Assembly: GCA_020091685.1 (NCBI GenBank)
Contig: CM034607.1
Coordinates: 29,944,831 to 30,008,830, forward strand
From: Lutjanus erythropterus
Lineage: Eukaryota; Chordata; Actinopteri; Lutjaniformes; Lutjanidae
DNA: 64,000 nucleotides
Reading direction: 5' to 3'
The notes beneath the pieces are model-generated. The model was given only the letters and a program-made list of their open reading frames with translations. It ran no database searches and was not told the origin of the DNA. The translations under genes were made by a program, and so were the position numbers. Below are positions 3,129-11,554 of this stretch, piece after piece; within the stretch, counting starts at the first letter, position 1; every line of letters starts with the position of its first letter.

Positions 3129-3197
<69 letters not shown>
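3129..3197. repeat. (TG)34 microsatellite upstream of cgas
   Basis: An uninterrupted alternating TG tract of about 69 bp, ending 60 bp before the interferon-response element at 3257. Alternating purine-pyrimidine tracts of this length can adopt Z-DNA under negative supercoiling (established for TG repeats); any role here is inference. Confidence 0.97.
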
Positions 3198-3256: not shown

Positions 3257-3274
3257 GAAACCGAAAGTGAAAGT
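3257..3274 (+). promoter_or_regulatory. Interferon-stimulated response element (ISRE/IRF site) of cgas
   Basis: GAAACCGAAAGTGAAAGT: three GAAA cores each separated by exactly two bases, which matches the IRF/ISGF3 consensus GAAANNGAAA plus a third half-site. It lies about 76 bp upstream of a perfect splice donor (CAG|GTGAGT at 3351) and about 1.15 kb before the cgas start codon. That is where an interferon-driven promoter should be if the first exon is non-coding. Mammalian CGAS is itself interferon-inducible. Confidence 0.7.
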
Positions 3275-3934: not shown

Positions 3935-4072
3935 TGTGTGTAGCTAACGTTAGCGATTCTTCTAGTTAACATTACCTATTGTTCTGTGTAGCTAATATTA
4001 GCTAATGTTAGCGGTTGGTCTGTGTAGCTAATGTTAGCGGTTGGTCTGTGTAGCTGACATTAGCTATTCTTC
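3935..4072. repeat. Short minisatellite of TCTGTGTAGCTAATGTTAGC units
   Basis: Four to five imperfect units of about 26-30 bp (core TGTGTAGCTAATGTTAGCGG) in the inferred first intron of cgas. The GTTAGC/GCTAAC word is also the core of the larger array at 28260-28820. Confidence 0.7.
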
Positions 4073-4414
4073 TGACCTGTAAATGTTTCTTTAAATTATA
4101 TTCAGTCTTGGATGATGACAATATTTTCACAGCTGAAGGCAGAACTATCACTATTTAAACATTTGAAATTTATGGAATATATATGTATGGATAATTTTGA
4201 AAATTATTTCTCAAAAGATGAAAGAATATTTAGAGGTGATGAGAGTTTGACAGTTTCACTGAAAATCAACTCATGAATTTTGATCAGTGAGCCATATACA
4301 AGTGGTGATTGTGCAAATTGTTGACAGTTGTACTTAGTCTTTTGCACACATGTGCCAAAATATGTTATTCTCTGTTCTCTGTAGATTAATACTGCAGTCT
4401 TAGACGAGTGAATT

Positions 4415-7400
4415 ATGCACAGAGAGGACAGAGATGCGAGCCTCAGACGGGGCAGTCCGACTGTTGCTTTGCAGCACAGAGACAGCACCAGAAGAAAGTC
4501 GAGTCCTCCACACCTCACACCAGCAAGACAACGGCTGCAAGTCCAGGATCAACAAGCAGGGGATGTGGCAGGTGAAATTTTGCATTTGGTTTGAGATTTG
4601 AAAGAGTTGGTCAAACAGCTTCATTGTTGCCACGGTCTCTAAGTCTCATCCTTGTTTGTCTTACAGAGGACGGATCCAGAGAGGTGGAGGAGTCGGTCTT
4701 CATCTCCCCTGAACTGGCCAACTGGATCAAACTCAACGCTAAAGACATGAAGATCCGGCAGAAAGACCGCTCGTGGGCTGCAGAGGTGGTGAACGATTTC
4801 AGAGACAACCTGCTGAAATTCCTGCGGAGCAGCAAGGATCAGCCTTTCTTCCAGTCAGCGGACTTCCTCACCACCGGCAGCTACTTTGAGAAAGTTAAGG
4901 TCAGGTCATGATGACAAACCACCCACAATACCTAAAGGCAACAATACAGTAACTCTGTGACGCTTTGGATCGGAGTTTGCTCAAATAAATATCAGTAAAT
5001 AAATCAGTTTTGTGTGAAGTGGTGTTGACTCTCTGTACTCCGACCTCAGATCCACAGGCCCAATGAGTTTGACATGATGCTGAAGCTTCAGGCTCCTTCA
5101 CGCCTCAACATGATGGAGCTTGATGATGGCCTCTTCTACCGCATCGAAATCCCCCGGCCAACACGTGCCACCCGAAGCCCCGTACAAGCCTTTCTTCTGG
5201 ATGACGAGCGCACGCTTTCATCAAGCAAGATCCTGAACGAGACGTACCGTCTGGTCCGCAAGTTCCTCAAAACCTACAAAGGTGAGATCGTCACTGTTCA
5301 TCTCTTCTCTGTTGTTATTAGTTTGTGCCAATCGTCTGGTTTCTCCCTCCATGTCCATGTTGCCGTTATGGTTATTTCTACACTGTTTAACATTTTGTCC
5401 ATGACAAATTTAGGCTTATTATGGCCTCTGTCTGTGTTTTCTTGTCCCTGTTTCCAGCTCCTGACGAACACTGTCACTGGGAGGTGAACAGGAAGCGTCC
5501 AAACTCGCCAGCTGTGACTTTATCTCTGTTCAGTATGGGAAACAGCAGTGATGAGCTGATCTCTGTGGACGTGGTTCCTGCTCTGGAGGTAAACATTTTT
5601 TAGATGTGAAAATATTCTGCTGCCTCTCTGATGTCTAAGGCTGTCCCTGACTGTGCCACACTTAATTTCTGTATGAGCTTAGATGAGTATGTTTTACCAG
5701 TTAGATTCATGTTTTCATGTCTTTCTTTGTTATCTGTGATGTGACAACATCAGTATTTTCACACAGTCACAGAAATTGAAAGTGTGCATCCTCATATAGT
5801 TCAGTTCAACAAAGCTGCAGAGCTTTTATTATTTAAGCATTTATTTTACCAAACCAGAGTTGGTGAATGTTGGGACAGTGGAAGGATGAACCAAGACGTT
5901 TTTGGTGAGTTTTATTTAGTTTCTGTGAAGTTTGAATGAAGGTGATAATGATGCAGAAAGAATCTGGTGAGTTTGGCAAGAGCAATTAAACAGCTGTTTC
6001 TGATTAAACCAAATTACGATTTAAAATAAGGTCTTTCACTGCTGTGGTCTTTTCCATAATGTTGTCAGACACTAATGATAACAATCTGCACCTGTCGGAG
6101 ACAAAATGTTGCTGATACATGAGTAAAAATCTTGTCAATCTCTCAAACTGTTTGTTTTATCAAAATATACTTGAATGTACCTAAAGCTAGCTGCTAGATG
6201 CTATACACTGATCCTTTAAAGTGCCAAAAGTGAAAGTAATAATTATGCAGAATAACTAAGTTCAGAATAAGAAATATTACATAACTGTATAACAATTATT
6301 AATGCATTAATGTGTGAACATGTAATGTTGCAGCTGGTAAAGTTTAATCTATAAGAATAATAAGAATAATAATAAGAAGAAATAAGTGTACTTCTTCCTA
6401 CTCTTTTTCAAGCATATAAACTGTTGTATAGGTTTTCTCTAATTTTTGTTTTGCATCTAGCTATTCTTAACAAAGATTGTTGGTTATGTTTTTATTGTTT
6501 ACTTTCTTTCTTACAATCTAAAACCAAAGTTATATGTTGATTATATTTTATATAAATAATCTGATTCTGCAAAGTCACTAATTAAAGTTTTAAAATAAAT
6601 GCAGTGGAGTACAAAGTACAATATTTCCCTATAAAATGTAGTGGAAAAATAAAATTTTGAATATTCCAGTAAAGTACATATACATCAAAACTGTAGAAAA
6701 GTAAATGGACTGTATTTTACATAGTGCTATGTTTTATGTGTTTTATGTCACATCCACTCATTCACAAAGCGATAAGGAGCAATTTGGGGTTCAGTATAAG
6801 TGCTTCCTTTTAAAATACTTGGTATTTCTTATATTCTTGTATGTAAGAAACACATACGCATACCTCCTCCACATGTGGTAGTAGCATTAGTAGTCAAAAT
6901 TCTATAGTACGGTGGCCTGGTAGTTCAGTTTGTAGAACATTTGCTCTATGTACGAAGACTGCGAGTCCTCTGCAGCGGCTGTGGGTTCAAATCCCGCCTG
7001 TGGTTGTCTGGTTGATTGCATGTCATTCGCTGACTCCCTCCCCTTTCCTGTGATATCTTCAACTGTCCTTTAGCCCCCCAGAATTGTAAAGTAGGAGGAC
7101 TATATGCTAATGTAATGGCAGTGGAAGGTAATAGTATTGGAGGCAGTAATAATGACAGTAGTATTGTACTTACATACTGATCTAACGTGGCTTAACTTTT
7201 GTCCTCGTTCCTGTGTGGAGGTTCACTCGTCTCAGGGCTGGCCGCTCGCCGTCCGTTGCGGTCCAGATGTGGAAAACTGGCTGGGGAAGAAGGTTCGCCA
7301 AGAAATCAAAAGTTTCCCCTGTTACTTTGTACCCAAGAGGCTGAAAGGACGAAACCTCAAGGAGGACGCCAAAGGTGAGAAGGATTTCTGTCTGTGAACA

Positions 7401-10259
7401 TCAATGACCACAACACTACAAACAAATGATGTTCATACAAAATGCTTTAGATTAAACTACCCAACAGTATATAAAGTAGTTCAAATGAGGTAAACCTTAA
7501 ACATCTAATTAATGCAGCAGAAATATTAATCCATAAACATCAGATATGACAGTAAAACACTGACAGGGACCATTTTACTGCATTATGACTGCATTTACCT
7601 TTGATCATTTAGGTAAAATCTGCAGGATTTTCACTTGTGGTGGGTTGTTTCCAGTGTTAGTGCTGCATAAGCTTTATGTTTTGCAAAAAAAAAAAAAGTT
7701 TAGCAGAATTGGCTGCATTTAGCAGAAGATTGACAATGGCCATTTAATCATGGTGTTTTTCGGTGTTATGGATCAATGAATGAAAAGAAAAATAAATGCA
7801 GTCCCCAAACAGCTCATGAGAAATGACAATCAGTGTCTCCTCCTCGCCACAATAACAGCAGCCATCTGTGCACACCGCTGGACTGATGAGGACCTTTCTA
7901 TTTGTTTCTTCAAATTCTCTTGTCAGTGTATTTCCTCTCTTATTGTGCAAACAAATAAATAAATATTTGTACTTAAAGGCCCAGTAATTTAGCCCCATAT
8001 ATTTCCACCTCAGCTCGAGCGCAGAGTTGACAGAGGAATCTTTTTACTGCTGAAAATATGAACATACAGTGTTGACAGAAGAGAATGTGCACTATTTGTT
8101 CCAGTGCTTTGGTTTTAAAGTTCTTGCATGATGCTACGTGTTGAGCTAAAACATTATCGTGTTTGTGGAGCTGTAAAACACTTTGTGCAAAGGCTGGGAT
8201 AAAGTTATTTTTTGTGAAGTGTTCCTTTAAAATTAGCAGCACCTGTCTGTCCTTGCTTTTCTGTCGCATGTGTCTGTGTATTTGTGTGGTGACATTTTGC
8301 TCCTCTGTTGCAGAGAGTTGGAGGATTTCTTTCTCTAACATTGAGAAGAAAATCATCGCGAGCCACGGCAACACGAAAACCTGCTGCGAGAGCAACGCAA
8401 CCAAATGCTGCCGGTGAGACTGAGTCACTTTATTCACAGTCATGAAGCTGTTTGGTAACCTTTGATCCAGTCGTCCTGAATCAAAGTCGTGCCAGTGTGG
8501 TTCCAGTTAGACCAGTTAGTCATGACTGAACAGTGTTTGACCTGAACTGACAATGAAACTGTAAAATGTCATAAATAAAACTGCTTCAAAAATTCACCTG
8601 ATTAAAGCTTTAGTATTATATACAGCATTTTCTGTACCTCTGTGTGATAAAATACTCTCTCTAATGGGTTTTTAAATTGAAATGAATGTCTTAATTAATA
8701 ACTATGACATCATATGCTAATTCTTTATGAATCAGATCAATAAGAACAACTTTTATGTTGCAAAGTTGTGAAAAATTCCTTTGGTCGACCAGCTGACCAG
8801 TCTTCACAACTTATGTTTTTAATTAATTTACTCATAATTATTAAATTATTTATCAATATTCATAAACAGTTATTAATGATTCATAAACCCTTTACAAAGG
8901 ATTCTTTATTTAAGTAAAGTGGTACAAAATACCACATTACTAATAAAATAGTGAATAGTGTTTATAATTAAGTAATTCAGCAATTAAGATTGCTTAACAA
9001 ACTTAATAGAGAAGCAAAAAAGGAGGCCATGATAGCCTTCAAATTAGCAAAGTTTTCAAAGTTTTCATGTCATGATTATTGAAAATAGGAGATATACCAT
9101 TTAAAAATAAATAATGTCCTGTTGTCTCTGGCAGAAAGCAGTGCTTAATGCTCCTCAAGTGTCTAATCGAGGGCCTGAAACAGCGTTTTCCCAAAGAGCT
9201 GGATGACCTCTGCTCGTACCACGGGAAAACTGCCTTCCTCCACACCCTGTCCATCAGGTACTCTTCAACAGCATCATCATCATCATCAAAATATCAGCAT
9301 AAACTGGAGCACGAGAAGCACAAGTACTATAATTGAGCAGAGGTGGGACTAAATCCCAAGTGACAAGTCTGGATTCAAGTCCAAAGTCCTAAACTTTGAG
9401 TTTCGAGTCCTAAACAAGCCATAATACGCTCTTTATCAAATGTAATTAGATTTTAACAACAGAGCCTCCTTTTTGTGCAACTTCTAATGTCAAATGAAGT
9501 TGGAAGTTGTTGTGTCTCTGTCTGTAATTTTCGATCTGCACGTTTTGCAACTCAGTAATATAACTGGGGATATATGATAAATATTGGAGCCAATAAATTA
9601 TTGGATGATATTTATTACAAATATCTGATTTGGCAGATTGTAAAAGCATTTAATTTGAATTTCTTAGACAAAGGCTCTATAAAGTTGACAGAACCCCAGT
9701 CTGGAGAAGCAGCAGGAGTACTGCTGTTATGGACAGGATCAGCAGCAGAACAATTCTAGATGCATTGAAAAAAAAAAAAAAAATCAATATTAGATTAAGT
9801 GTACCCTATATATCGAATATTTTCATATCATTCTCTGCAAAGCAACCAGTCTCTGTTTTCTCTGTCAGGTTCAGTGACTCCATGTGGTCCAGTCAGAAGC
9901 TCCCCGCCTGCTTCCTGCACCTCTTCAACGCTCTGGAGAACTTCGCTCACATAGGCGTCCTCCCTCACTTCTTCGTCCCCAAATGCAACCTCTTCTCCCC
10001 GAGCGTGTTCCCCCGCAGAGCGCTGGCGTTCCTCGTCGGCGCCCTGGAGGAGCAGAGGAGGGAGGGTCTGCCCCTGCTGAAGCCTCCAGCTCCTGTCCCC
10101 CCACTGAGACTGATGAGTCCACCAGAGGACAACACCTCCACCGAGACGTCTGCCGATCGGCCGTCCGCACAGACTGCAGTCATAAGTTTACTGGTGTTAG
10201 TGTTCGCTGTAGCTGGTGTCCTGTTTCTTAAGTGGTGGGAAAGGAGGAAAATAAATTAA
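4415..10259 (+). CDS. cgas: Cyclic GMP-AMP synthase (cGAS), with a predicted C-terminal membrane anchor
   Basis: Eight coding exons: 4415-4571, 4667-4899, 5050-5281, 5458-5588, 7221-7374, 8314-8413, 9135-9257, 9869-10259 (1521 nt, 506 aa). All have GT-AG borders and matching phases. cGAS binds cytosolic dsDNA and makes 2'3'-cGAMP from ATP and GTP to activate STING. Residues 1-52 are a short, Arg-rich N-terminus (human has ~160 residues here). The nucleotidyltransferase core has GS at 123-124, Glu136 and Asp138 in NEFD, and Asp245 in SVDVVPALE. Arg306, Ser308, Ser310, Lys344, Ser363 and Tyr364 align with human nucleotide contacts. The zinc thumb is H320-x5-C326-C327-x6-C334, the mark of DNA-sensing cGAS. 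The human-like end ([10 protein letters not shown]...GLPLL) stops near 447, followed by a 59-residue extension. There a P/S/T-rich linker leads to [18 protein letters not shown] (480-497) and the tail KWWERRKIN. Start: first ATG after an in-frame TGA. Identity is very secure; membrane insertion is inference. Confidence 0.95.
5640..5990. repeat. Dispersed repeat in cgas intron 4, shared with klhl31 intron 5
   Basis: Segments here such as TTCATGTTTTCATGTCTTTC and ATCTGTGATGTGA-CAACATCAG recur with small changes at 21690-21840, in the same order. A looser match continues around GGTGAGTTTTATTTAGTTTC (compare 22120-22160). No coding capacity; family not identified. Confidence 0.6.
6911..7085 (+). 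mobile_element. tRNA-derived SINE (cgas intron 4)
   Basis: Pol III box A TAGTTCAGTTTG (6921-6932) and a perfect box B GGTTCAAATCC (6984-6994) lie in a tRNA-like head that starts GGTGGCCTGGTAG. A non-tRNA body follows (TTGATTGCATGTCATTCGCT, then TCCCTCCCCTTTCCTGTG), typical of acanthomorph SINEs with a 'TGCATGTCAT' body. The acceptor stem does not pair and the box spacing is wide, so this is not a working tRNA gene. Confidence 0.8.
9696..9850. mobile_element. Fragment of a TTAA-ended foldback MITE (cgas intron 7)
   Basis: Contains TCTGGAGAAGCAGCAGGAGT and a GTTATGGACAGGATCAGCAG stretch, followed by A-rich sequence and ATATCGAATATTTTCAT. It matches the inner left arm of the longer copies at 57958-58687 and 59007-59786. 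Both ends are missing. Confidence 0.65.
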
Positions 10260-11554
10260 TAAAAACTCCCCCTTTAACGAAGTATACCAGCTTATACAGG
10301 GTGTTATAACTTATCAATAAATGAAGAGACACAGATGAATTTTTGTGCTTTGAGAAAGTTGAGAGGTGACCTGTGATGAACATTTATCAGTGACTATATT
10401 GATGACATCATAATCAAACTACATTAAATATCACATTTTCCATGATGATAAAGGAGGTTTTAACATTTTGTTATGTAAAACAGAAACAATTATCCTGACA
10501 ACATCCTGATATCATATCTATCTGTGCAACAGATTAAATTATTTTGGGGTATTTGCTTAAATTTTGCTTTAATACAAAGTGTTTTAGTATCATGTTGGGG
10601 TTTTTTTTTGTAACTTTCAATGTACTGTAATATTTTGTAAATCAAAGGATTATAATAATGAAATTTCGTGAATAAATAAAAGTATCCATGGAGTGCCTTT
10701 AAAAGATTAACTTTGTTAAAGAATTAAAAAGTAAATGTCAGAAGAAGGATAAATAAAATCACTAATATGCAAGGATATATAAATAAAATCTAAAAGAATA
10801 ATTTGACACTTTCTTTTTTCAGTCATTTGTGTTATTTCTGTAGAACAACAACAACAACAACAATAATAATAATAATAATAATAATGAAAAATCTTAGAAT
10901 TGTTCTTTTATATTTTGTTATTTGTCTTTTTATTTCCACGTATATTTGTCTATTTATTCCTCTTTGTATGTCCACATTTATTACATTTTATTTTATTTCC
11001 GATTTTTTTTTTTTTATGTCACTCCCATGACTCCATCAGTACCTTGTATTGTTGATTTAATAAAAAATAAAGGGACATTATGTCTGTGGTGAAAGACTCA
11101 TAAATAGAGCTACAACTCATTTCCTTTTGTTTTAATTTACCATGAATCAAATGTTTATTTAATTAATCTGGTGGTTATATAAAATGTCCAACTTCAGATT
11201 GCTTGTTTTGTCTCACCAAAATTCCAGCAAGATTATAATTATAAAAGAGAAGCAAGTCGTCATGTCTTGGAACCTTGAACCACTGTTTCTGATTGAAAAA
11301 TTATTATTTCTATATTATTTATGATCAATTCTAACTGTTGGTGATTAATTTTCTCTTGATCAGAAATCAAATAGTAGATGCAACTGACATGTCATTGTTT
11401 ACGCAATCTAAATTAAACTCAAACTATATAATATATGCAGACGATAAAATAATTTACTTTTACACAAATATTTAACTTTTAGTTCGTATCCCTCGGAACC
11501 CTCGCGCTGTTTCCCGCGGTGTTCCCCCGAGCTCATTTACGGTGAACACACCGC
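10260..11554. other. cgas 3' UTR and cgas-rpl11 intergenic
   Basis: AT-rich. Candidate poly(A) signals AATAAA occur at 10316-10321 and 10671-10680. The AATAAA at 10258 overlaps the stop codon and is too close to use alone. A mixed (AAC)n/(AAT)n tract lies at 10844-10885. No gene seen. Confidence 0.6.

Follow-up and report, generated by a model that had tools for sequence, protein, structure and literature searches.

The place where cGAS is held in the cell decides whether it encounters viral, mitochondrial or own DNA. The described membrane proteins that come closest to it differ in activity or in descent: MiD49/MiD51 and the ITPRIP proteins are membrane-anchored near the N-terminus and are not known to be cGAMP synthases, and TREX1 is not a known cGAS relative and degrades DNA instead of sensing it. 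TREX1 is a cytosolic DNA enzyme of the same pathway, held at the ER by one C-terminal helix according to the accessible part of the source (PMC11904002), and MiD49/MiD51 and ITPRIP are placed in the same superfamily as cGAS (PMC10732462, in part). For cGAS itself, tethering by the N-terminus versus the core surface is disputed, and the accessible text of PMC6927687 argues for the core surface and assigns a tether role to mouse R222, K240, R241 and R244. In the cGAS literature searched, as far as its accessible text extends, membrane cGAS is described as plasma-membrane-bound, as anchored to the mitochondrial outer membrane or as bound to an unnamed membrane; no cGAS membrane helix is described there, and a tail-anchored or transmembrane cGAS was not encountered. 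Among cGLRs, 87% carry no added domain and the fusions named in the excerpted report are ankyrin, TPR, death-domain and multi-cGLR proteins (PMC9980059).

In fish, grouper EccGAS was described in the available sections of PMC9945316 as having no transmembrane region and as uniformly cytoplasmic, overlapping in part with ER and mitochondria, and it co-localizes with STING at the ER (PMC11264591, in part). Grass carp has two cGAS copies, cGASa and cGASb, with opposite effects (PMC11264591). A review, as far as its text is accessible, states that the teleost cGAS N-terminus is markedly conserved and that knock-down of zebrafish cGAS left the HSV-1 response unchanged, which speaks against a strong role (PMC7582293).

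The cgas gene of the window

The window, a 64-kb stretch of Lutjanus erythropterus DNA that forms part of contig C17, contains on its + strand a cgas gene of eight coding exons (4415-10259) encoding 506 aa. Rebuilding the gene from GT/AG junctions reproduced the 506-aa model of the initial annotation; 15 alternative in-frame junction sets gave proteins of 496-504 aa, all with the same C-terminal tail. An in-frame TGA (4409-4411) lies just 5' of the ATG. No further cgas was seen by tblastn inside the 64-kb window, and Rfam and ARAGORN returned no matches.

4415-4571, 4667-4899, 5050-5281, 5458-5588, 7221-7374, 8314-8413, 9135-9257, 9869-10259, + strand: coding exons of cgas (GT/AG junctions, phmmer, Pfam)
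4415-4741, + strand: 77 N-terminal residues ahead of the aligned core, with a net charge of 0, interrupted by the first coding intron (4572-4666)
8314-8413, + strand: exon with most of the zinc thumb (H320, C326, C327, C334; junctions and residue check)

Both Mab-21 domains, the nucleotidyltransferase (PF03281, 4.5e-35) and the C-terminal domain (PF20266, 2e-22), were detected by Pfam. A phmmer search against the PDB gave 41 distinct sequences at E <=0.001, with cGAS chains as the top matches and mouse cGAS as the best (E about 2e-73), the aligned part running over window residues 78-447 and residues 155-504 of the 507-residue mouse chain. In this core, 145 of the 349 aligned residues are identical to mouse cGAS. 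At the positions that we take to be those of the cGAS catalytic (G-S, E, D, D) and zinc-thumb (H-C-C-C) residues, all five of the former (G123, S124, E136, D138 and D245) and all four of the latter are kept. Judged by these features the window copy is a cGAS whose active site is intact and which may carry out DNA-activated 2'3'-cGAMP synthesis. The two proteins differ at their ends: the mouse chain stops three residues past the aligned part, without a membrane helix, and has 154 residues before it versus 77 in the window copy. The N-terminus is short, as had been noticed before; the 52 residues then counted ahead of the core are those that the first coding exon encodes.

A second cgas copy with the reversed architecture

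The 938-Mb assembly was searched with a Mab-21 profile, which gave six matches among eight scored candidates: C3 contributed one match, C4 two, C16 two exons and the window gene a single exon. By this search the genome appears to hold two cgas copies. The second copy, which is new in this analysis together with its reversed architecture, lies on C16 (locus L007 1450-5052, about 26653450-26657052) and has five coding exons for 582 residues when the second of two in-frame ATGs is taken as the start (627 residues from the first). Its N-terminus comprises 232 lysine-rich residues before the core with a net charge of +17, versus 77 residues and a net charge of 0 in the window copy. Its C-terminus, FPIFK, ends one residue past the last mouse-aligned residue without any tail, and no membrane segment is predicted in it (best energy +2.33). 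All four mouse tether residues (R222, K240, R241 and R244) are present in the C16 copy versus three in the window copy, in which K240 is replaced by proline. Identity to mouse cGAS is 45.1% over 357 positions for the C16 copy and 39.6% over 369 for the window copy, and the two fish copies share 36% identity over 373 columns. With five versus eight coding exons, intron number differs between the duplicates.

As a separate observation, the C16 protein starts with MTGRGRPRK, which by eye resembles what we take to be an AT-hook motif; Pfam detected no AT-hook in this copy at E up to 1. A decayed anchor behind the C16 stop was also considered and rejected: the same frame meets more stops before a hydrophobic run that lies in AT-rich flank and shows no clear similarity to the tail; the run was taken as chance.

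In both loci an eef1a gene immediately precedes cgas and shares its orientation, and the eef1a exons upstream of the two copies form seven exon-sized pairs matching at 67-96%, with the last exon lowest.

about 804-928, + strand: last coding exon of the upstream eef1a in the window (ORFs and eef1a exon comparison)

In the trees the fish copies were grouped against mouse with values of 96/96 (six rows) and 99/99 (five rows), to be read with the tool's warning of long branches, which in the five-row tree applied to the fish-copy pair itself. The simplest reading of these data would be an old duplication of the eef1a-cgas block in fish, possibly through the teleost genome duplication. Beyond the intact C17 eef1a, more eef1a-like pieces in differing frames lie upstream of it (L014 1506-4714), perhaps a decayed or tandem copy.

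The grouper protein may be the counterpart of the C16 copy, a suggestion that comes from length: its authors give 575 aa (their 1695-bp frame would give 564), nearer to 582 than to 506 (PMC9945316, in part). Compared by description, EccGAS resembles what is proposed below for the window copy in its partial overlap with ER and mitochondria and differs in being reported without a transmembrane region, which, given its length, need not contradict an anchor in the window copy.

ISRE-like sites lie upstream of the window copy.

3257-3272, + strand: overlapping pair of strict ISRE-like sites (GAAACCGAAAGTGAAA), 5' of a presumed non-coding first exon; putative promoter element

The strict ISRE pattern occurs five times in the 64 kb, counting both strands. 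In the first 1.6 kb of L007 no strict ISRE was found, with one loose match at 1203. The ISRE-like sites suggest that, of the two copies, the one in the window may be inducible by interferon.

A hydrophobic C-terminal extension

The last exon of the window copy stays in frame past the end of the mouse alignment for 59 codons (residues 448-506, 10080-10256) before the stop at 10257-10259. This agrees with the 59 added residues noted earlier, except that their start had been placed at 10082, two bases off.

10080-10175, + strand: P/S/T-rich linker, residues 448-479 (32 residues), net charge -1 (composition)
10176-10229, + strand: predicted membrane helix, residues 480-497, uncharged (insertion energy, window counts, AlphaFold)
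10230-10256, + strand: C-terminal tail KWWERRKIN, residues 498-506, net charge +3 (composition)

The linker, hydrophobic stretch and basic tail of the initial annotation were all recovered. The best predicted insertion energy was -2.5 for residues 477-500, and the next separate segment of the protein scored +3.72; the same formula gave -0.76 for a segment of SEC61B, -4.66 for one of VAMP2 and -1.91 for one of glycophorin. The best 19-residue Kyte-Doolittle mean was 2.82, and the GRAVY of the helix is 3.02 over residues 480-497 and 1.93 over 478-500. An AlphaFold model of exon 8 alone, made from one sequence and with a mean pLDDT of 54.6, showed residues 477-505 as helical; this was the part modeled with most confidence, its blocks averaging 70-82. 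The layout is that of a tail-anchored protein, with a single hydrophobic helix nine residues from the C-terminus (480-497 of 506) and, by the energy scan, no other predicted membrane segment, as had been claimed; the predicted absence of an N-terminal signal comes from the same scan.

The extension belongs to no family detected in the PDB (best E 2.2, a receptor membrane helix) or in Pfam (best E 0.028, below the Pfam cut-off). Two scans of viral_contigs and one of genome_contigs returned no relatives, which has no bearing on conservation in fish because these collections are viral and prokaryote. An origin of the tail as a transposon or copied exon was rejected, since blastn in the window found only matches of 17-21 bases besides the tail itself, and the genome search returned, apart from the tail, three hits with E between 0.8 and 7.

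Membrane anchor or read-through

Taken together, the sequence features argue with moderate confidence for a duplicated cGAS with a short N-terminus and a predicted C-terminal tail anchor, its catalytic domain lying in the cytosol and the ER being a somewhat likelier destination than mitochondria. If the tail is translated, the last helix would be captured post-translationally by the route of tail-anchored proteins, and its insertion would leave the catalytic domain in the cytosol, the ER being somewhat favored over the mitochondrial outer membrane. An ER-held enzyme would sense DNA near STING and away from chromatin in interphase. It would still have to pair on DNA, and the flexible 32-residue linker would probably permit such pairing. 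The positive-inside rule counts against this reading, as a basic tail would favor the opposite topology, and so does the retention of the chromatin-tether arginines R222 and R241. The published descriptions of a grouper cGAS lacking a transmembrane region and of a conserved teleost N-terminus weigh on the same side. The earlier interpretation of a membrane-fixed fish cGAS is partly supported, and so is the view that an N-terminal tether was replaced by a C-terminal one: the C16 copy, with its long basic N-terminus and no tail, agrees with such an exchange, while the retained arginines, together with the argument for a core-surface tether in the accessible text of PMC6927687, speak against it.

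The alternative with most in its favor, although in our estimate unlikely, is a young read-through, in which loss of the ancestral stop in this lineage turned former 3' flank into coding sequence, the hydrophobic stretch having arisen by chance and being neutral or only weakly used. Both the C16 copy and mouse stop at residue 447/448 in window numbering, as such an event would predict, and a genome search with the tail gave no second clear hit (next E 0.8). How readily chance supplies a helix depends on the comparison. In the 64-kb window outside 4000-10300, read in six frames at steps of five codons, 1,510 of 22,941 windows of 59 codons were open, and 52 of the open ones (3.4%) held a helix of equal or better energy, and 24 of the open ones had an equal or better Kyte-Doolittle mean; the 3.4% speaks for a read-through, and the 52 out of all 22,941 for an anchor. 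Against it, random sequence rarely gave both features at once: three base models, each supplying 20,000 first-order random sequences, gave 1,177, 280 and 137 open ones, of which 0, 1 and 1 held as good a helix (4, 13 and 12 when any energy up to 0 was accepted). Shuffling the residues of the tail 5,000 times never gave as good a helix. The combination of open frame and helix is uncommon, yet chance may produce it for a feature chosen from the whole window.

The compositional evidence for coding use of the extension is mixed. For the whole extension, one of 250 intron or UTR windows scores as coding-like; however, among the six frames the true one has the lowest score (0.06 versus 0.10-0.32), so that the score reflects GC content and not frame. 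By composition the linker is core-like, which disfavors a read-through, and the helix and tail are intron-like (77 of 255 windows score as high). Third-position GC over residues 480-506 is 10 of 25, where codon use in the rest of the gene would give 17.6 (P 0.00085), and this deficit, with the lack of a frame-specific coding signal in the anchor codons, suggests that the anchor may be young and counts in favor of a read-through. GC is 0.52 in the extension versus 0.29 in the 3' flank, a contrast that favors the anchor reading. Within the extension it declines from 0.63 (linker) to 0.35 (stop). This gradient has two possible reasons, an innocent end-of-gene trend or a recent birth of the anchor, the second of which fits a read-through. 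Pointing the other way is the placement of the helix at the extreme end with a short charged tail, in the style of tail-anchored proteins.

Within the anchor reading, and overlapping with it in probability, stands the more doubtful proposal that the tail is a mitochondrial or peroxisomal anchor, which would bring cGAS near leaked mtDNA and MAVS instead of STING. According to the available part of PMC5450235, an anchor with its tail cut to +2.9 went to mitochondria and a tail of +3 is more usual there, whereas strong hydrophobicity of the helix can outweigh a tail of moderate positive charge and direct the protein to the ER. The net charge of the tail and the GRAVY of 1.93 for the wider helix favor mitochondria and weaken the ER call, and grouper cGAS partly overlaps mitochondria (PMC9945316, in part); the 3.02 of the 18-residue helix core favors the ER, and the two GRAVY values together give a lean to the ER without certainty.

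On a simple consensus no donor-like site in exon 8 exceeds 5/9, versus 6-8 for the seven used donors, and the polyadenylation hexamers lie at the end of the reading frame.

10250 and 10258 (10250-10263), + strand: two AATAAA hexamers overlapping the end of the reading frame, none earlier in exon 8

No sequence signal that would remove the tail, either a good donor or an AATAAA before the helix, was seen in exon 8. A main mRNA without the tail, made by alternative splicing or polyadenylation and leaving an ordinary soluble cGAS as the mature enzyme, is very improbable with no exon 8 donor above 5/9 and no AATAAA before 10250, even though the last used donor, that of exon 7, is weak (6/9).

A possible difference in location between the two sensors

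Returning to the putative tail-anchored enzyme, the opposite architecture of the two copies, a tail in one and a long basic front in the other, suggests that the cell may keep its two sensors at different sites. A tentative extension, possible though short of probable, is that localization split after the eef1a-cgas duplication, the C16 copy keeping a long basic N-terminus and the four tether residues and the window copy becoming interferon-inducible and ER-anchored beside STING. If true, a vertebrate cGAS would be separated from self-DNA partly by an integral membrane anchor, and the split might help explain the opposite roles of the two grass carp copies. The duplicates form a natural pair, one with a long basic N-terminus and the other with a predicted anchor, in which the tether question becomes testable. 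Work on fish cGAS may be setting side by side two proteins that differ in location, a possible factor in the conflicting roles described in the accessible text of PMC9945316 and PMC11264591.

Neighborhood of the window copy

Pfam was run on 20 sampled ORFs of the window and matched four, a ribosomal L5 C-terminus (presumably rpl11), Kelch repeats, elongin A and a PITH domain, all downstream of cgas. In human, we take eef1a-cgas to lie at 6q13 and the genes of the ribosomal L5 family, elongin A and the PITH domain at 1p36. On these positions the window joins genes of the 6q13 type (1-930 and cgas) to genes of the 1p36 type (11600-64000), which implies a chromosomal junction relative to human between cgas and rpl11.

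Repeats were also noticed in and around the gene. A segment of coding intron 4 (6910-7060) looks by eye like a tRNA-derived SINE (GTAGTTCAG ... GGGTTCAAATCC), and ARAGORN called no tRNA in it. A 26-base tandem repeat (TAGCTAATGTTAGCGG...) occupies 3999-4074, before the first cgas coding exon, and a TG microsatellite of 34.5 copies lies at 3129-3197, near the cgas promoter.
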